From a virus, in the IMG/VR virus record IMGVR_UViG_3300046747_000082, positions 1 to 50,471 of that record: DNA of 50,471 nt; one strand, given 5' to 3'. Made by a program: the position numbers and the translations under genes. Below are positions 4,807 to 46,678 of the stretch, in pieces (positions within the stretch are counted from its first letter, which is position 1; every line of letters begins with the position of its first letter). The notes beneath the pieces were generated by a model, which saw nothing but the letters and a program-made list of their open reading frames with translations, did not search any database and was not told where the DNA came from.

Positions 4807-6677
4807 GCATTGGTTCAGGCGTTGGTGATGGCATTGATTTTGCCGTTATATTTGAACGCCGACAAGACCTTCTAGCGTCGCATATCAGCGCGCTGTGGAC
4901 GCAATGGCAGTCCAACAAGACAGCAGCGATGGCGCGGTGGGATGAAGTCCTACGGTACGTATTCGCTACGTCTACGAAAGATACGACGAACGAAACGACT
5001 ACGGACTGGAGTAACACTACTCACAGGCCGAAACTGGGTAACATTTATGATACCCTGACGATCAACTATGACTTCGCAAACTTCCCTAACCGGGAATGGC
5101 TACGATGGCAAGGTGGCGACCAAGAGTCAGCCACGCAAGAGAAAGCGAAGATAGTTGAATCGTATATGCATACGAAGCACAACACGAGAGCATCAGGATT
5201 CCGAGATGTGGCACGTCTTCTACAGTCTGACTGGACTATCTTTGGCAACTGCTTTGCAGCTGTCGATTACGTACGCGAGTATGTTACTAATCCGGTTGAC
5301 GGTACTATTACTACCGCTTATATAGGTCCACGCATCAATCGTATTGATCCGCGTGACATCTGTATGAACCCGGCAGCTACGTCATTCCGTTCTACTCCGA
5401 AGATTATTCGCAGTATGTTTACGATTGCAGACCTGCATCGTATCATTGAAGAACGGCCAGATCAGCAGCACTTCCGCGAGATCCTCGCTGTAGCGCTGAA
5501 GAATCGTGGTGGAGCTCGTCGCTTCGATAGCGCTGATATCAACAAGGATATGTCTCTCAGCTTCGACGGATTCTCAACGACCTATCAATACCTCAACTCG
5601 GGATTGGTAGAGGTTCTAGAGTTCATGGGAGATCTGTACGATTGGAATACCAACTCGTACAAGAAGAACCATGTCATCACTACCGTTGACCGCTGGGTTG
5701 TAGTACGTGACGAAGAGATCAAAACTTGGTCTGGTCGTCCTAACGTATTCCATTGCGGTTGGCGTGACCGTGTAGGTAACCTCTGGGCACAAGGCCCGCT
5801 AGATAACCTCGTCGGTCTTCAGTACAGGATGAACCATCTTGAAAACGCTCGCGCAGATGCATTTGACCAAATGCTTGATCCGGATATGGTTTTCCAAGGC
5901 GATCCAGAAGAGATTGTCCAGATCGGTGGCGCCAAGCACTACTACATGCCAGAGGGTGGCAACGTCACTCCTCTTCGTCCTGACACTACAGTTCTCTCTG
6001 CTGATTTGCAGATTAAGGAACTTGAGTCGATCATGGAGATGTACGCCTTGGCTCCGCGTGAGGCTTTGGGGATTAGATCACCAGGCGAGAAAACTGCATT
6101 CGAAGTACAAGAGCTCACTAATGCAGCTGGCCGAGCTTTCCAACACAAGGTAGACAAGTTCCAAGAATTCTTGGAAGATGTTGTTAACGCTGAGCTGGAA
6201 GTATCGGTAGATAACTTGGATCAGACTGACGTGATCGAAGTCGTTGATGACGACCTTGGCGCTGTTCAGTTCATGACGATTACCAAGGCTGACATTATGT
6301 CAACTGGTAAGCTGATCCCAATTGGTGCTCGACACTTTGCTCGCAATAACCAGATTGCTCAATCTCTGTCGCAGCTTCAGCAAGGTCCGCTACAAGATCC
6401 GGAAGTGGCTCAACACTTCAGCTCGGTAGCTCTGGCCACGATGTATCAAGACTTGCTTGACACGGGTGATGACAAGATCCCGCTCGTTAAGCCTTATGTT
6501 CGTATTGAAGAACGCCTGCAAAGTCAGCGTAAGGCTCAGGTCGCAGAAGACCAAGCAGCGCTCGAATCGCAGATCTCAGGAGGAGTTCCACTTGGAACAG
6601 GAAACAATAGTCCCCAGCAACAGCAAGCACCGGCTCAGCCCGGCGCTGTCCAAAGGACTCTCGGAGGCGGACGCTGA
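4803..6677 (+). CDS. portal (head-to-tail connector) protein
   Basis: A 624-residue protein immediately after terL with an ATGA overlap. Long helical segments, a conserved central region around DRVGNLWAQGPLDNL and the acidic segment QTDVIEVVDDDLGAVQF are typical of podophage portals, which form the dodecameric ring through which DNA is packaged and to which the tail attaches. It is longer than T7 gp8 (536 aa). The C-terminus is Gln/Pro-rich. A second gene begins inside its last 86 bases. Confidence 0.88.
   Translation: MSIGSGVGDGIDFAVIFERRQDLLASHISALWTQWQSNKTAAMARWDEVLRYVFATSTKDTTNETTTDWSNTTHRPKLGNIYDTLTINYDFANFPNREWLRWQGGDQESATQEKAKIVESYMHTKHNTRASGFRDVARLLQSDWTIFGNCFAAVDYVREYVTNPVDGTITTAYIGPRINRIDPRDICMNPAATSFRSTPKIIRSMFTIADLHRIIEERPDQQHFREILAVALKNRGGARRFDSADINKDMSLSFDGFSTTYQYLNSGLVEVLEFMGDLYDWNTNSYKKNHVITTVDRWVVVRDEEIKTWSGRPNVFHCGWRDRVGNLWAQGPLDNLVGLQYRMNHLENARADAFDQMLDPDMVFQGDPEEIVQIGGAKHYYMPEGGNVTPLRPDTTVLSADLQIKELESIMEMYALAPREALGIRSPGEKTAFEVQELTNAAGRAFQHKVDKFQEFLEDVVNAELEVSVDNLDQTDVIEVVDDDLGAVQFMTITKADIMSTGKLIPIGARHFARNNQIAQSLSQLQQGPLQDPEVAQHFSSVALATMYQDLLDTGDDKIPLVKPYVRIEERLQSQRKAQVAEDQAALESQISGGVPLGTGNNSPQQQQAPAQPGAVQRTLGGGR
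6578..6583 (+). promoter_or_regulatory. ribosome binding site AGGAGG for the TTG start at 6592
   Basis: A six-base perfect Shine-Dalgarno sequence within the portal coding region, spaced 8 bases from TTG. It decides the start of the small gene between portal and scaffold. Confidence 0.65.
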
Positions 6678-6873: not shown

Positions 6874-7571
6874 CCAATGAATTTGGCAAGGGTGGCGACA
6901 CCACCTCAATGGAAACCCACCAGGACGACAAACCGGGTCTGGGAATTGATATGACGGCTGATGAAGTGGCCGCACTGAAAAAGCGTGACGAGAATGCACA
7001 ACCGCATATCTCGCGCTTAGAGACAGAGAATAAGCAGCTCAGAGATGAGCTAGCCAAAGCTGCTGCTAAACTCGATAGTGCCACCGTTCTCGATGACGTC
7101 ATGGCTAGACTTGACAACAAGGATGGCCAAGGGGTAACCCCCGATCAAGTAGCTGATCTCGTAGAGAAACGAATTCAGCAAAAAACACAAACGAACCGAG
7201 AAGAAGCGAACTGGAATACAGTCGTAACTAAATTGGTAGCTCAACACGGTAGCTTTGAAAAAGCAGACGCAGCGATCATACAGAAAGCGCGTGAGCTTCA
7301 AATGAGTGTCAGTGAGGCAACCAGATTGGCGAAACAAGCTCCAGCAGCTTTCGAACGTCTTTTTGTGAATACAGCTCAGTCGATTCCGTCTCAACAGACG
7401 ACGACTTCAGCTACACAACAATCCGCACAGTCAGTGGCTCCAGCAGGAGCAGTTGACGATCTTGAAACGAAGCGTAAGTATTACAATGACCTTCGGCGTA
7501 AAAACCCGAACAAGTATTGGAACGTACAGACGCAGATGCAATATCGTCGAGACATGGGCTTTGCAGATTAA
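6870..7571 (+). CDS. capsid scaffolding protein (putative)
   Basis: A 233-residue, highly charged protein with a long coiled-coil segment (about residues 30-75, Lys/Glu/Leu heptads), a Gln/Thr/Ser-rich low-complexity linker (about 170-195) and a basic C-terminal helix (ETKRKYYNDLRRKNPNKYW). Scaffolds of T7-like phages share this layout: acidic coiled coil, then a basic capsid-binding C-terminus. It lies between the portal region and the capsid gene, the standard scaffold position. Confidence 0.8.
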   Translation: MTNEFGKGGDTTSMETHQDDKPGLGIDMTADEVAALKKRDENAQPHISRLETENKQLRDELAKAAAKLDSATVLDDVMARLDNKDGQGVTPDQVADLVEKRIQQKTQTNREEANWNTVVTKLVAQHGSFEKADAAIIQKARELQMSVSEATRLAKQAPAAFERLFVNTAQSIPSQQTTTSATQQSAQSVAPAGAVDDLETKRKYYNDLRRKNPNKYWNVQTQMQYRRDMGFAD

Positions 7572-7599
7572 TATCAACTTTAATATGTGGAAAATTTAA

Positions 7600-8580
7600 A
7601 TGTCTGCTATGGACAGTGTTTGGGGTAATACTCACCTCAAGCGAGCGGAAACGTTTAATGCACAGTTGAAGGAAATGTTCCAAGACCAGCTTTTTGCACA
7701 AGCTTGGGTACGGATGATTAACGATTTCGGTGATGGTGATAACTACAAAATTAGCACCCTCGGCGAATTGGCGATTGACCAAATGTCGGAAGCTGTATCG
7801 CTCCCAGAGCGTCGGCCTGACACTGGTCAGTTCGTATTCAACATCAACGAATTCGTTGGTGTCAAGGTTCCTTATACGGACCGTTTCCTTGAAGACGACT
7901 TCCTTGCACCGGCAGCTATTGCAGCTTTGCCGCGTAAGATGAAGCGTGCATTTGACGAATATTACGAAACGCAAGTTCTGAAACTGCAGCGCGTACAAAC
8001 GAACAACTCCTCGAACACGATTAACGGTGGCCGTCACCGTATCACTGCTTCGGGTACGACTCGTACGTTCGCTCTGAAAGACATCGCGTACGCGCGTTAC
8101 GTACTTCAGAAGGCGAAAGCACCGTTGACCAATCTGGTCGCGATTGTTGATCCGTCCTTCGAATTCAATACCAACATTACCTCGACCATCACCGACATTA
8201 GCAATAATGCCCGTTGGGAAGGTATCATCGAAACTGGTATGGGTCTCCCGGACGGCGTTCGCTGGCTGCGGAACATCTATGGTTTCGACTTCTATGTTAG
8301 TGATTACCTCGATAGCGAAACCGCTGTTGAAGGCTCTCTGACGACCTACAACGGTACTAACGTTGCAACGGTTGTTGGTGACAAAGCTAACATCTTCATG
8401 ACCCTGGCTGATGACGAATGCAAGCCGTTTATTGGTGCCTGGCGCCGTACCCCGAAAATCGTTTCGTGGCGCGACGAAGACATTGAAACGGAATACCATC
8501 AATTGTCGGCTCGTTTTGGTCTCAACCTTTATCGTCCGGAAAGCTTGGTAACAATCTTTACGTCGACGACCCTTAACTAA
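7600..8580 (+). CDS. major capsid protein
   Basis: A 326-residue protein directly after the scaffold, in the position and size range of HK97-fold capsid proteins of podophages. It lacks signal or membrane segments and uses frequent common codons, as expected for an abundant product. Recognisable segments include the N-arm, a central YYETQVLKLQRVQ helix and a C-terminal region with YHQLSARFGLNLYRPE. It starts 28 bases after the scaffold stop in an AT-rich leader. Confidence 0.85.
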   Translation: MSAMDSVWGNTHLKRAETFNAQLKEMFQDQLFAQAWVRMINDFGDGDNYKISTLGELAIDQMSEAVSLPERRPDTGQFVFNINEFVGVKVPYTDRFLEDDFLAPAAIAALPRKMKRAFDEYYETQVLKLQRVQTNNSSNTINGGRHRITASGTTRTFALKDIAYARYVLQKAKAPLTNLVAIVDPSFEFNTNITSTITDISNNARWEGIIETGMGLPDGVRWLRNIYGFDFYVSDYLDSETAVEGSLTTYNGTNVATVVGDKANIFMTLADDECKPFIGAWRRTPKIVSWRDEDIETEYHQLSARFGLNLYRPESLVTIFTSTTLN

Positions 8581-24125: not shown

Positions 24126-24879
24126 CTAAGAATTCTTTCCATTTGTCTGAGAAGTATTTGACGTACTTGTCCTTGACATGATTGTACATCTCTGCTTCAT
24201 TGTCCATTTCATCCAGCTGCTTGAGCCAGACGGACTTCTTGCCGACGTTATAGAGACCAGCAATGTTGTCCACTGCATCCCCCATCAGCATCTGCTTGTA
24301 GAAATTTCTAGTAGCTTCGATCAGGGTTACGTAGTATGGTGGGCGTTCAGGGTGAACCTCTCCCATCAGGATACGCTTCTCTTTGTCCTTCTTCAAGGTC
24401 CACTTGAAGTGCCACCCCGGCACTGTGTCTAAGTCTTTGTCTCGACTACAGATGACAGTGTTGCTGTAGCTTTTGATGTGCTCTTCATCACCGTTCGTCA
24501 GCTGGTATAGTTGACGGTACTCTGACCACTGATCCATTGCCATGGCGTCGTCAGCTTCGTATCCGTCGCACCATTGAGCACCAAAGCTATGCTCGTACAG
24601 GTCTTTGATTCGATCGACGAGTTCAGGCTTCGGCTTACGAGTACCCTTGTACGGCCTGATGGTAGCAAGTTCATGTCGAAAAGTCTTACCGTGAGATAGG
24701 TAGCAGGTATGTCCACCAGCCTCAGCGTTAGTGACAATAGATATGAAGCGACCAGTAGCAAGACCCTTGACCAGATCCCACGCCATTGGACGCCGCTTCT
24801 TTTCTTCACCATCGAGGTATTCCTCTTCCATATGCCCGAGCTCGTTAGCTGGCATATCACCATCAATCAACGCTCTCAT
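24037..24879 (-). CDS. 5'-3' exonuclease (T7 gp6-like, FEN family)
   Basis: A 280-residue structure-specific exonuclease. Metal-binding and family motifs are ALIDGD at the N-terminus, RPYKGTRKPKPE (about 78), DGYEADDAMAMDQ (about 105), CSRDKDLDTVPG (about 144) and GDAVDNIAGLYNVGKKS (about 200). It removes RNA primers and helps degrade host DNA for nucleotides. It is followed by endonuclease I, the same partnership as in T7. Confidence 0.9.
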   Translation of the reverse strand: MRALIDGDMPANELGHMEEEYLDGEEKKRRPMAWDLVKGLATGRFISIVTNAEAGGHTCYLSHGKTFRHELATIRPYKGTRKPKPELVDRIKDLYEHSFGAQWCDGYEADDAMAMDQWSEYRQLYQLTNGDEEHIKSYSNTVICSRDKDLDTVPGWHFKWTLKKDKEKRILMGEVHPERPPYYVTLIEATRNFYKQMLMGDAVDNIAGLYNVGKKSVWLKQLDEMDNEAEMYNHVKDKYVKYFSDKWKEFLDETGKLLWLWRKPNDIWKSPAERDNSWYE

Positions 24880-25070
24880 TCCAACGGCCTCCGGCCCTGT
24901 CGTACGTACCGGCCTAGTCCCATCTTAGCGATGAACCGGCCTACCGTACCATGTGAACATTCCCATTTAGTCGCTATCTGATCCAGCGTGTAGTCTGCTT
25001 CGAGCAATCCCTTCACTAGATCCTTGTCACTCTCCTCGAATGTAGAGGGCTTGCCCTGCTTATTCGTCAT
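24876..25070 (-). CDS. small helix-turn-helix protein (64 aa)
   Basis: Residues 26-53 (LDQIATKWECSHGTVGRFI and on) fit a helix-turn-helix. Basic residues cluster at the C-terminus (RYVRQGRRPLE). It could be a trans-acting regulator, and it is the only clear small DNA-binding candidate in the window. ATGA overlap with the exonuclease gene. Confidence 0.7.
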   Translation of the reverse strand: MTNKQGKPSTFEESDKDLVKGLLEADYTLDQIATKWECSHGTVGRFIAKMGLGRYVRQGRRPLE

Positions 25071-34518: not shown

Positions 34519-35108
34519 TCGTCAAAGTATCCTGTTGGGACTTTGTAAGTTGCTTTACGTGTTGCTTCCCGAGCATCTACAAGTGCCTCCAAAGGTTGTG
34601 GGTAGAAGTTGTAGTGTTCAAGGCAAGCGTTGATGTACCGAGGGTCACTCGGCCCAACTGCTCGCCCCTGATCGGGGGTTGTAGCCCCTTCCTTCACTAC
34701 GTTCGTATGCAAGTGCCCATGGATGTTGTAGCCCCAGTACATTTCCTGCGGGTGGATCGGGATGTGCGTCAGCACTAGCCGAATACCCTTCAGGTTGTAC
34801 GTTACTACGCCATGAACCTTGTCACCAAATAGTTGGAGCAACTCTGCGGTGTCATGATTGCCTCCAACAACTTCAATGCGACCAGCCAAGCGATCCCGGA
34901 TATCGCGCATATAGGTGCCGCTAAGATCACGGCCAATGTCGCCAAGCAGATAAACCTTATCCCGCTTCGTAACCACCGCATTCCAATTCTGAATAAGGAA
35001 TTCATCATGCTCTTCCATCGTCATCGTTTGCAATTTCTCCCGCCCCGGTAGGAAGCGGATGCTTTTCGTACCGAAGTGCGGGTCGCCAACAACAAATATA
35101 CGACTCAT
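34515..35108 (-). CDS. metallophosphoesterase
   Basis: A 197-residue calcineurin-like phosphoesterase. Motifs in order: VVGDPHFG (D-x-H), YLLGDIGRD (GDxxxD), VVGGNHD (GNHD), LTHIPIH and NIHGHLHT (GHxH). All metal ligands are present. Phage members act on phosphoester or nucleotide substrates; the target cannot be read from sequence. Confidence 0.92.
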   Translation of the reverse strand: MSRIFVVGDPHFGTKSIRFLPGREKLQTMTMEEHDEFLIQNWNAVVTKRDKVYLLGDIGRDLSGTYMRDIRDRLAGRIEVVGGNHDTAELLQLFGDKVHGVVTYNLKGIRLVLTHIPIHPQEMYWGYNIHGHLHTNVVKEGATTPDQGRAVGPSDPRYINACLEHYNFYPQPLEALVDAREATRKATYKVPTGYFDE

Positions 35109-35137
35109 GCTAGTTCTCCCGCCACAGTAGACTGAGC

Positions 35138-35386
35138 TTAGCTGAAACTAAAGCGGCAGCCTCGATTACAAATTGCAGGTTCTTTAACCATCTTGAACTG
35201 TTGTTCCATCTGAACATCAGCAAGAACTTCAGAAATCTTAATGTCTTCAATGCTCTCGTTCTTACCCCACTGCATAGCTGTATATTCAGCAGCTTCACGG
35301 GTGGATTCAAACGATACAAGGTTAGTCCAGTCACTTTGATCAGTAGCAGTTACAACGAAGTTATCGTACCGATTCGAGTAGCTCAT
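35138..35386 (-). CDS. hypothetical protein (82 aa)
   Basis: The start MSYSNRYDNFVVTATDQSD at 35386 is preferred over 35404, since an AGAGGA lies about 9 bases upstream. A short beta-alpha domain with Trp and a C-terminal Cys pair. An attenuator-like hairpin lies about 40 bases upstream. Confidence 0.65.
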   Translation of the reverse strand: MSYSNRYDNFVVTATDQSDWTNLVSFESTREAAEYTAMQWGKNESIEDIKISEVLADVQMEQQFKMVKEPAICNRGCRFSFS

Positions 35387-35424
35387 TCTTCTCATCCTCT
35401 TCAAAGATACATAGTATCAGACAA

Positions 35425-35444
35425 CAAAAAATGGGAAAAGTTCC
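35425..35444 (-). terminator. weak intrinsic terminator or attenuator (minus strand)
   Basis: On the minus strand GGGAA and TTCCC pair around a 3-base loop and are followed by A and six T. The stem is short. It sits between the small genes at 35519-35813 and the rest of the replication operon, so it may reduce rather than stop transcription. Confidence 0.5.
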
Positions 35445-35518
35445 CGTTAAATACATCATCAAACGGTTGGGGTGAGAGAGTTTCCTCAATCACCCCTCCC
35501 GGTGTCGCTAGTACACGT

Positions 35519-35611
35519 TCAGGTAAGAGCTGCCATAGCTAGCTGCATACCTAGGTACATCACAACATACGTTCCAGCAATATCCACAGGAAAGTGGATC
35601 GGGTGTTTCAT
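35519..35611 (-). CDS. hydrophobic micro-protein (30 aa)
   Basis: Frame MKHPIHFPVDIAGTYVV and on, ending MAALT. A hydrophobic helix covers most of its length; CAGGGA lies about 8 bases before the ATG. It lies in an otherwise empty 200-base gap. Possible small membrane protein. Confidence 0.45.
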   Translation of the reverse strand: MKHPIHFPVDIAGTYVVMYLGMQLAMAALT

Positions 35612-35627
35612 TTGTACGTCCCTGGTT

Positions 35628-35813
35628 TTATGCTGATACACTGGGGTCGTACTCAACACAGTTGACTACAACCAGATGCTTTCCATCGTTCAGCTTAAGC
35701 AGATCTACAGTGGACAGTGGAAACGCAGATTGTGGATAGCCATAGATCATAGCATCCACTCGCGCATCCACCGGCATACCGTCCAGAAGCGCTCGGAGTT
35801 CGCCTACGTTCAT
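35628..35813 (-). CDS. hypothetical protein (61 aa)
   Basis: Starts MNVGELRALLDGMPVDARVDAM, a layout (TVGEL...L..LP.DA.V) common to many small phage proteins of unknown function. AGAGGAG lies 9 bases before the ATG. It is the first gene after the long-stem RNA element at 35855-35969. Confidence 0.72.
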   Translation of the reverse strand: MNVGELRALLDGMPVDARVDAMIYGYPQSAFPLSTVDLLKLNDGKHLVVVNCVEYDPSVSA

Positions 35814-43966: not shown

Positions 43967-44428
43967 TTACTGTTGGTCTACTGAGTCCGGCGCCTGTTGC
44001 CGAGTACCCATAGACTGCTTCATCTTCTTGCTCATTACCTCCGCATTCGTAAGCTTGCGCTCTTTCTTGCGGCTGTTGTTCGACCACGGACCATAAGACT
44101 TGCGCGGAAACTCCGTGCGATCGGTGCCGAACTTGAAGACACGAGCGCCGACTATCTTATTGGCGCCGCTATCGCGTGTCCGATGCTTCATCATCTCGCG
44201 AGAGAGGATGCTATCGGAATGGCGTGTCTTGTCTTGCTCGCGTCTACGCTCTAACGCTGCTGCGTTATCACCTTGCCCTACGTTAGGCGCGGCTGTTGCT
44301 TTGCCTACGTATGCAGGTAATCCCTTAGCGCGTTGCTTACGCTTACGCTTTGCGGTTGGGGCTAGCTTATAGTCCTTTGAGAACTTAGCTAACCATTTCC
44401 GTTTCTTACCTACGCTTGTATCACTCAT
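43967..44428 (-). CDS. basic protein of unknown function (153 aa)
   Basis: The start MSDTSVGKKRKWLAKF at 44428 overlaps the end of the upstream gene by 8 bases; the longer frame would cover that gene. About a quarter of the residues are Lys or Arg, in several clusters (TAKRKRKQRAKG, NNSRKKERKL), suggesting nucleic-acid binding. No fold recognised. Confidence 0.7.
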   Translation of the reverse strand: MSDTSVGKKRKWLAKFSKDYKLAPTAKRKRKQRAKGLPAYVGKATAAPNVGQGDNAAALERRREQDKTRHSDSILSREMMKHRTRDSGANKIVGARVFKFGTDRTEFPRKSYGPWSNNSRKKERKLTNAEVMSKKMKQSMGTRQQAPDSVDQQ

Positions 44429-45078: not shown

Positions 45079-45108
45079 ATTATACCTGGATAGATATACA
45101 GTAGTCTA
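45079..45108 (-). promoter_or_regulatory. candidate sigma70-type early promoter
   Basis: Minus strand: -10 TATAAT (45084-45079) and a weak -35 TAGACT (45108-45103) with an 18-base spacer. The -35 lies inside the dispersed palindrome. It would drive the minus arm, whose first gene starts about 500 bases downstream. Confidence 0.5.
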
Positions 45109-45113
45109 GACTA
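45102..45113. promoter_or_regulatory. 12-bp palindrome, exact copy overlapping a candidate -35
   Basis: On the minus strand its TAGACT half stands 18 bases before a perfect TATAAT (45079-45084). A protein bound here would compete with or recruit RNA polymerase at the first early promoter. Confidence 0.65.
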
Positions 45114-45133: not shown

Positions 45134-45393
45134 CGCCCCTTAGCCAGGCCGTTAGCGCCAGAGATAACGAGTGTACTAAGGGGCGCAACTAACGAGCTTA
45201 TCGAGGGGCGTCGCGCCATAACCTAACGGTTAGGTAGAGGGGCGCGACTGAGTGACACTGTTAGCTAACGACGCGCCAGAGGTGCGCCCCTTAGTGGAGT
45301 CGTTAGACGTCGCCCCTTAGTTGGGTCGTTAGCGCCAGCTCTAACAGTTCCACAGAGGGGCGCCCCACAATCTAACGGTTAGACTAAGGGGCG
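45134..45393. repeat. iteron array, candidate replication origin
   Basis: Ten 22-bp units: CGCCCCTTAG, six free bases, CGTTAG. Forward copies: 45134-45155, 45243-45264 (degenerate), 45285-45306, 45311-45332. Reverse copies: 45164-45185, 45189-45210, 45223-45244, 45265-45286, 45341-45362, 45372-45393. The 6-base gap is kept in every copy while its sequence varies, the mark of a two-part protein binding site. The array abuts an AT-rich stretch and lies between the divergent arms. No Rep protein was recognised. Confidence 0.75.
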
Positions 45394-45477
45394 GGGGAAG
45401 GGGGGAGCCAGGGCCTTCGGCCACCTCCGTATAGTCACTCGCAACTTTCTGCAACAAATTCATGAGATTCGCTTCTT

Positions 45478-45505
45478 TTGACACTATTGTAATATATTTT
45501 ATTAC
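45478..45505 (+). promoter_or_regulatory. candidate sigma70 promoter for plus arm
   Basis: A perfect -35 TTGACA (45478-45483), a 16-base spacer and -10 TATTAC (45500-45505). It would read towards the tail fibre genes with a leader of about 250 bases. Confidence 0.45.
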
Positions 45506-45598
45506 TATTGATGTACTTTTTTTATAAATGATGTAGTTGTTGGGGAACTTTTTCATTTCTTTGTTGTCTGATATATCATATATGTGTAAATAATAGAT

Positions 45599-45650
45599 AA
45601 TTATAAGGAAGAGAGGGAAGGATAGAATCAATCTATCATACCTTATAATT
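45599..45650. repeat. nested inverted repeat in AT-rich leader
   Basis: AATTATAAGG (45599-45608) and CCTTATAATT (45641-45650) pair perfectly, and inside them GATAGA (45621-45626) pairs with TCTATC (45632-45637). A purine-rich stretch (GAAGAGAGGGAAGG) lies between. It may be an operator, a cruciform at the origin or a leader hairpin. Confidence 0.65.
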
Positions 45651-45713
45651 AATATAATTATTATTCTACTATAGCTATAGTACTACATTGAACTGATTGC
45701 TCGCTTCCTCAGC

Positions 45714-45763: not shown

Positions 45764-46678
45764 ATGGGCACTACATACATCCCAGAAGACGTTGGCAGCG
45801 GTTTCCACACAGAAACCATCCTGAACAACGAATTGACCAAGATCGCAGCCGACTTGGCGACTAAGGTAGACCGCAATGGTGTACTGCCAAACTCAATGGC
45901 TGCAGACTTCGACATGGGAAACCATCGTATCCTGAACCTTGCACAAGGAGTCTTGGGTAGCGATGCAGTAAACTTGTCGCAAGCACAGAACGTAGCTAAC
46001 GCTGCAGCTGCTGCCGTTGCTGGGGGTATCCCCGGTGGTGGTGGTGCAAGCAATAGCAACCCTCTAACTTTCAACTTTGGTGTAACAACCGGAGCTTCCG
46101 GTACAGTTGGACGTACTACGTTCGATCTGCAAGCTCTGTTTGGTGTTACGACCTTTACAGGTCTTACTGTAATCGTGAATGGTGTCGTACAGATGCCAGG
46201 TCTCGCGTATACAGTACCGACGTTGACTACGGTTGTATTCTCCGAGAGTCTCAATACTGACACGGACATTATGTTCATCTACGGTCAGTTGACTCCGACT
46301 CCGGTACTTCCGAACATTCTAGCGAATATCGAAGGGTACGACATTGCAGGATACTACAATAACCTACAAGTAGCATCTGATGTTTACTTCAAGTTCGTAG
46401 TTGTACGTGACTTCTATGTTCAGGCTAACTTTAGTGGCTCCTTGCTTCATGCAGGCGTAGCTGCAACTGCATCAGCTACATACAACATCCAGAAGAACGG
46501 ATCGAACATTGGGACGGTAGTTGTCGGTGCTGGCAGCCAAAGTGGTACATTCACCTTAGCTGGAGCTACCAACTTCGTAGCTGGTGATACAATGAGTATC
46601 ATCTGCCCGTCTTCACAGGACGCAAGTCTGTCAAACGTTTCGATCACTATCAAAAGCTTTATCGGAGCTCATCCTTAA
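45764..46678 (+). CDS. tail fibre or tail-attachment protein (304 aa)
   Basis: The N-terminus contains NNELTKIAADLATKVDRNG and a following NHRILNLAQGVLGSDAVNLS, the Asn-His-Arg-Ile-Leu-Asn-Leu motif shared by many fibres of podophages at their tail-binding end. A Gly-rich linker (GGIPGGGGASN) leads into beta-rich domains. It is the first gene of the plus arm and is followed by the large fibre. Confidence 0.78.
   Translation: MGTTYIPEDVGSGFHTETILNNELTKIAADLATKVDRNGVLPNSMAADFDMGNHRILNLAQGVLGSDAVNLSQAQNVANAAAAAVAGGIPGGGGASNSNPLTFNFGVTTGASGTVGRTTFDLQALFGVTTFTGLTVIVNGVVQMPGLAYTVPTLTTVVFSESLNTDTDIMFIYGQLTPTPVLPNILANIEGYDIAGYYNNLQVASDVYFKFVVVRDFYVQANFSGSLLHAGVAATASATYNIQKNGSNIGTVVVGAGSQSGTFTLAGATNFVAGDTMSIICPSSQDASLSNVSITIKSFIGAHP

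Follow-up and report, generated by a model that had tools for sequence, protein, structure and literature searches.

A bipartite repeat array at the predicted genome end of a Zobellviridae-like phage as a candidate protein-docking site

The 50,471-base virus record IMGVR_UViG_3300046747_000082, which constitutes the window analyzed here in its full length, belongs to a phage known from metagenome data alone and carries at positions 45134-45393 an array of units of the form CGCCCCTTAG-N6-CGTTAG in both orientations. We tentatively favor the view, with confidence just short of even, that the array is a protein-docking site for genome-end processing and packaging. The observations on which this view builds are the array itself, the fixed gap within its units, its position in common with the annotated repeats of relatives, an adjoining G-tract resembling the head of a direct terminal repeat (DTR), and the recurrence of its motif in a second, unrelated group of phages; from these we infer a location of the array inside the repeat, binding by a protein, and a role in end processing.

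Results

Based on its primase-helicase, polymerase, terminase large subunit (TerL) and portal proteins, together with its two opposed gene clusters, the record is classified as a Zobellviridae-like phage, the structural and replication clusters lying on opposite strands in the layout of that family. The closest annotated relative is PQ867844 (Zobellviridae), with 56% identity in the primase-helicase and 42.5% in TerL; TerL is also 42% identical to that of ICP2. Judged from these sequences, the record appears divergent enough from annotated Zobellviridae to represent a separate lineage, and a DNA similarity search of the array locus and the early half against annotated phages gave no match. Rfam and tRNA scans of the whole 50,471-nt record returned nothing. 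The original prediction held that the phage has no RNA polymerase, and indeed no match to one was found among the scanned proteins; this does not set the phage apart, since the whole Zobellviridae family lacks an RNA polymerase of its own (PMC9960094). Positions 1-37 of the record contain a perfect 13-bp inverted repeat (CTTCTGCAGCTGC ... GCAGCTGCAGAAG), which may be an assembly edge.

Scored over 16 positions, four units of the array are perfect, one has a single mismatch, four have three mismatches and three are weaker, with four mismatches. The array predicted originally is thus real, in both orientations and at the divergence point of the genome, but its ten supposedly equal 22-bp units are better described as nine good and three weak ones, and the start-to-start steps measure 11-30 bp rather than 20-34. 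Unit 1 (45134-45155, + strand; CGCCCCTTAG CCAGGC CGTTAG) is perfect (0/16 mismatches) and is followed by unit 2 (45164-45185, - strand, one mismatch) and unit 3 (45189-45210, - strand, three mismatches, CGCCCCTCGATAAGCTCGTTAG). A weak unit (45212-45233, + strand, four mismatches) overlaps unit 4 (45223-45244, - strand, three mismatches), which itself forms a 42-nt dyad with a weak unit at 45243-45264 (+ strand, four mismatches). Unit 5 (45265-45286, - strand, three mismatches) forms a 42-nt dyad, palindromic at 30 of 42 positions, with the perfect unit 6 (45285-45306, + strand), and the likewise perfect unit 7 lies at 45311-45332 (+ strand). Unit 8 (45341-45362, - strand, three mismatches) again forms a 42-nt dyad, 30/42 palindromic, with a weak unit (45361-45382, + strand, four mismatches) that overlaps unit 9 (45372-45393, - strand), a perfect unit whose first box runs on into the G-tract.

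Both blocks are perfect in just four units, TCNG often standing in place of TTAG in the first one, and the best-kept core is CGC(C)CCT-N10-GTTAG. Within the array CCCCT-N10-GTTAG occurs seven times, while gaps of 0-9 and 11-13 bases do not occur, which bears out the six-base gap predicted earlier; together with the variable spacer, this preserved gap fits the two-part protein contact predicted with it. Sites with at most four mismatches number 13 within 280 bp in the array, whereas no more than two were reached in any of 12 first-order shuffles of the full 50,471-nt sequence. The most frequent word of the array is present in nine copies versus a shuffle maximum of three, a count equal to that of T7, the nearby genome end being a predicted one. 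Minus- and plus-strand units pair at a 20-bp offset (45223/45243, 45265/45285 and 45341/45361), giving imperfect dyads of 42 nt that are centered around GGGGCGCCCC, are palindromic at 22-30 of 42 positions (background mean 10.5, sd 4.0) and are also present in contig L016 of the second phage group described below. The array folds strongly as a single strand (z -5.9 and -5.2), which we do not count as separate evidence because the units are inverted.

On its late side, the array is followed by the G-tract and then by an AT-rich leader (45440-45690, 74% AT), which separates the predicted DTR head from the first late gene, encoding a tail-fibre protein (45764-46678, + strand). The AT-rich stretch noted originally is therefore real; the nested hairpin reported there is a weak one, its arms (45597-45626 and 45632-45661) being 70% complementary. 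On the early side, the first gene of clear length (43967-44428, - strand) encodes a basic 153-aa product with no family match, and nothing supports the earlier suggestion of this protein as a candidate binder. Bordering the array at 45102-45113 is the 12-bp palindrome TAGTCTAGACTA, one of 11 copies (eight exact, three with one change; 36462, 37804, 39343, 40122, 41104, 41694, 42460, 43424, 43948, 44617 and 45102) that are confined to the early region and largely intergenic; the related phages G001, G003 and G008 mainly carry TAGTCCGGACTA in its place, in 6-8 copies each. From its sequence and distribution, TAGTCTAGACTA looks like a repeated operator for a phage-encoded early regulator. The copy at 45102 overlaps a sigma70-like early promoter candidate, TAGACT-18-TATAAT (45079-45108, - strand), a weak candidate given that two such sites were found in the region versus 1.6 expected, promoter-like statistics that, as with those of the G-tract, were computed after the features had been noticed.

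In all four relatives compared that have annotated ends, the DTR lies in the early/late divergence gap, with terminal repeats of 172 bp in ICBM1, 121 bp in RIO-1, 138 bp in VpV262 and 711 bp in Klyazma. The record resembles these terminal loci in the length of the gap, which is 1335 bp as compared with 1161-1507 bp in three of those relatives. The first late gene is separated from the repeat by 252-298 bp in ICBM1, RIO-1 and Klyazma, and from a G/C tract by 339 bp in the record, 335 bp in G010 and 360-430 bp in GX1, so that the distance of the record's G-tract roughly fits that of the relatives' repeats. This tract, GGGGCGGGGGAAGGGGGG, begins at 45388 and abuts the array. A stretch of six G or six C is rare, occurring about four times per genome; G009, G010 and GX1 each have two of them in the divergence gap, and the record has one there, next to a five-base run. 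All of them are G-rich on the strand toward the late genes. Read from the late side, the record's tract (CCCCCCTTCCCCCGCCCCTTAGTCT) can be aligned to the head of the ICBM1 DTR, CCCCCCTTCCCGCCCCTAGACT, and to the G009 tract, only 1 of 200 shuffles being as good in each case. Its match to ICBM2 is modest, and its likeness to the tracts of RIO-1, VpV262, G010 and GX1 is not above that of shuffles. A conserved GC-rich 5' region has been described in cobaviral DTRs (PMC6775973), and the GC-rich predicted DTR head is a likeness of the record to the cobaviruses. A scan with the DTR-head pattern returned ICBM1 and chance matches only, and no further relative with the array.

By analogy with ICBM1, the predicted DTR head of the record would extend over 45388-45425 (- strand, GGCTCCCCCCTTCCCCCGCCCC), with the late-side end of the repeat placed near 45425, a predicted rather than a mapped position. 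If the predicted repeat is 121-711 bp long, as in these relatives, it would take in part or all of the array. The array most likely sits inside or beside a terminal repeat, as do the CCTAAAG arrays of T7. In that phage, CCTAAAG occurs 11 times within the first 340 bp, and three of these copies fall inside the 160-bp terminal repeat; T7 has in common with the record a short-repeat array in or next to the terminal repeat, a T7-like replisome and many copies in about 300 bp. The two differ in that the T7 array is built from a single 7-mer, always in one orientation and often spaced at multiples of 13 bp, whereas the unit of the record is a 22-bp bipartite element in both orientations and the ends of the record are predicted only. 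The primary origin of T7 is located away from its terminal-repeat array. Two observations count against the genome-end reading: the linear ICP2 record starts and ends at the other junction between the gene clusters, and Klyazma has terminal repeats without an array.

The CGCCCCTTAG-N6-CGTTAG array is absent from the covered parts of relatives found by polymerase and primase, the contigs of the nearest ones ending near or inside the array locus, and it is a point of difference from ICBM1, RIO-1, VpV262 and Klyazma, none of which carries it. What the relatives carry at the locus varies. G010 has 11 copies of TGTAT-N5-TACAG at the divergence locus, a palindrome of the type CTGTAT-N4-ATACAG near the gammaproteobacterial LexA box (contigs L050, ~7540-7890, and L048, 1-60); as LexA boxes proper (CTGT-N8-ACAG) these copies were rejected, being a close match and yet a different motif. 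Bipartite TGGCAY-type units in both orientations number eight in G009 and six in VpV262, those of VpV262 being sigma54-like, three AAGTGTTACG units are found at the locus in GX1, and a TAGA-type array adjoins the terminal repeat of RIO-1; no strong array was found at the locus in ICP2 or Klyazma. Repeat arrays at podovirus ends thus recur, and their letters are lineage-specific.

In several Zobellviridae-like phages, matches to sigma54-type -24/-12 promoters cluster at the terminal/divergence locus: VpV262 (L089, 172-347), G009 (34987-35764), G008 (L057, 181 and 252), G003 (L053, 202), G010 (L048, 252) and GX1 (L062, 45892). The weight matrix used for scoring was drawn from general knowledge of this promoter class. 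Among the records scored, nine of the ten matches reaching at least 17.5 fall in the terminal/divergence locus, and about 0.5 would be expected in all from shuffles. IHF-like AATCAATGACTTA sites lie at a similar distance from the sigma54-like sites in G008 and G010, and in G003 an NtrC-type enhancer site, GCACC-AAAAC-GGTGC (L053, 265-279), lies near the best sigma54-like site. The sigma54-like sites in these relatives suggest early transcription dependent on host sigma54.

Scanning the viral collection for the motif revealed arrays in one other phage group, represented by the four contigs L008, L013, L015 and L016. This group, which encodes a Terminase_2 small subunit of its own, is related to HTVC023P/027P-type podoviruses and has only distant polymerase and TerL similarity to the record. 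The units of this group have an information profile similar to the record's, some variants being identical, and the order of array, G/C tracts and AT-rich DNA in L013 and L016 is the same as in the record. The arrays adjoin the small-terminase gene and flank a single gene of ~200 aa (L016, 2717-3829; L013, 1963-2999). Between L016/L008 and L013/L015 this gene is not homologous, and its orientation with respect to the small-terminase gene differs; one L013/L015 array sits between convergent genes. The ~200-aa gene products were rejected as the binder, having no family match and no homologue in the record, and the two versions being mutually unrelated. Single motif copies in L009, L011 and L012 and two-unit matches in L039-L041 were set aside as chance or as no array. 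A two-unit scan of GTDB genomes gave two isolated matches, with no comparable arrays in prophages or chromosomes. Separately, the Pelagibacter phage HTVC027P carries a parS-like GTTTCACGTGAAAC near its small-terminase gene (L071, ~5330-5350).

Discussion

The reading of the array as a docking platform at the genome end is favored because the array adjoins the predicted terminal repeat, because its counterpart in the second group lies next to a terminase gene, and because T7 offers a parallel. Under this reading, a sequence-specific DNA-binding protein would dock on the array at the physical genome ends, the array beginning at the GC-rich head of the predicted DTR and extending toward the early genes. 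The protein would contact two boxes (CGCCCCT and GTTAG) about one helical turn apart, leaving the spacer free and accepting both orientations, and the many copies could nucleate a large complex at the end or at the concatemer junction. The most likely job of such a complex would be recognition of the concatemer junction for cutting and packaging and/or restoration of the ends during replication.

The original prediction was of an iteron-type origin, at which a phage or host initiator would bind the units and open the adjacent 250-bp AT-rich stretch, allowing the T7-like primase-helicase to load. We consider this unlikely, if still a serious contender, and the position of the array has turned out to be that of the terminal repeats in ICBM1, RIO-1, VpV262 and Klyazma. 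As in lambda-type and plasmid iteron origins, repeated predicted protein-binding units stand beside an AT-rich region of the unwinding type, the order of array, G/C tract and AT-rich DNA recurs in the unrelated L013 group, and the record has no RNA polymerase gene that we found; moreover, the divergence gap of phage T5S1 (PQ867843; L064, 9869-9923) contains two perfect DnaA boxes 34 bp apart. There is, however, no DnaA box near the record's array, family scans of the record's early proteins returned no Rep, O or DnaA-like protein, and the search for an initiator gave one weak helix-turn-helix protein only (24876-25070), so that the cognate initiator of an iteron origin was not found; the mixed orientations and the placement at predicted genome ends are further differences. 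Array, G-tract and AT-rich stretch do coincide with the GC-skew minimum, but the skew is uninformative on the origin because its sign flips exactly with gene direction. Measured by the refuting condition attached to the original prediction, the origin reading has lost ground: the relatives keep the same polymerase, primase-helicase and exonuclease and have other motifs (G009, G010, GX1) or no strong array (ICP2, Klyazma) at the locus, so that array and replication genes are not conserved together.

Rather unlikely, in our estimate, is control of transcription, in which a host or phage regulator on the units would switch the divergent early and late promoters. The sigma70-like early promoter candidate abuts the array, and VpV262, G003, G008, G009, G010 and GX1 have their sigma54-like sites at this locus, some with IHF-like sites and palindromes. 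The locus of the record, however, holds no convincing sigma54 site (TGGCACG-N4-TTGC), its best score of 11.9, inside the array, comparing with 17.6-20.5 in five relatives; the 11-copy array of G010 is separate from the sigma54/IHF block, and the L013/L015 array between convergent genes controls no promoter. A different resemblance is to integron attC sites, of which, by what is generally known of them, the units could be right halves (L'-R') that an integrase from a host integron acts on, or once did. Of the motif matches in bacterial genomes, about half are of the attC type, as are two single matches in viral contigs, with matching boxes and the 6-base spacer, and the ~200-aa gene bracketed by the arrays of the L013 group is the one that differs in homology and orientation. 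Every array nevertheless lacks the asymmetric left half (GGGACGC type), only 6 of 11 GTTAG boxes in the record extend to GTTRRRY, the arrays of L008 and L013/L015 and the second array of L016 are direct half-sites that cannot fold as attC, and no tyrosine recombinase was found in the array-bearing phage records. With one half-site alike in boxes and spacer length and with no other half, loop, integrase or cassettes, the likeness is, as judged from sequence, a resemblance of one half-site and not membership, and an attC identity of the units is very improbable.

Returning to the favored docking array, its binder may be sought outside the phage. BLAST and phmmer detected no small terminase or other DNA-binding protein common to the record and the L008/L013/L015/L016 group, and the lack of a common detectable small terminase argues against a phage terminase in this role. 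A code common to two groups without a detectable common DNA-binding protein makes a host protein possible. A search for a host regulon in 369 gammaproteobacterial genomes, the host class being a guess, gave 16 matches, not above the reversed-pattern control. That two unrelated podovirus groups both rely on a host DNA-binding protein, or else on a mobile genome-end module, through the same 16-base bipartite code in arrays beside G/C tracts and AT-rich DNA seems doubtful at present.

The array bears on how T7-like phages lacking an RNA polymerase of their own start replication and cut and restore their ends. It singles out one tangible element at the terminal locus, and the 16-base code of this element is defined well enough to serve directly as bait for its putative protein. 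Unrelated phages with a common code, and relatives that replace the code, would constitute a testable case of rapid code turnover or of host-factor use. If the reading across two groups were true, phage genome ends would act as interchangeable docking platforms, with a code that is replaced from one lineage to another.
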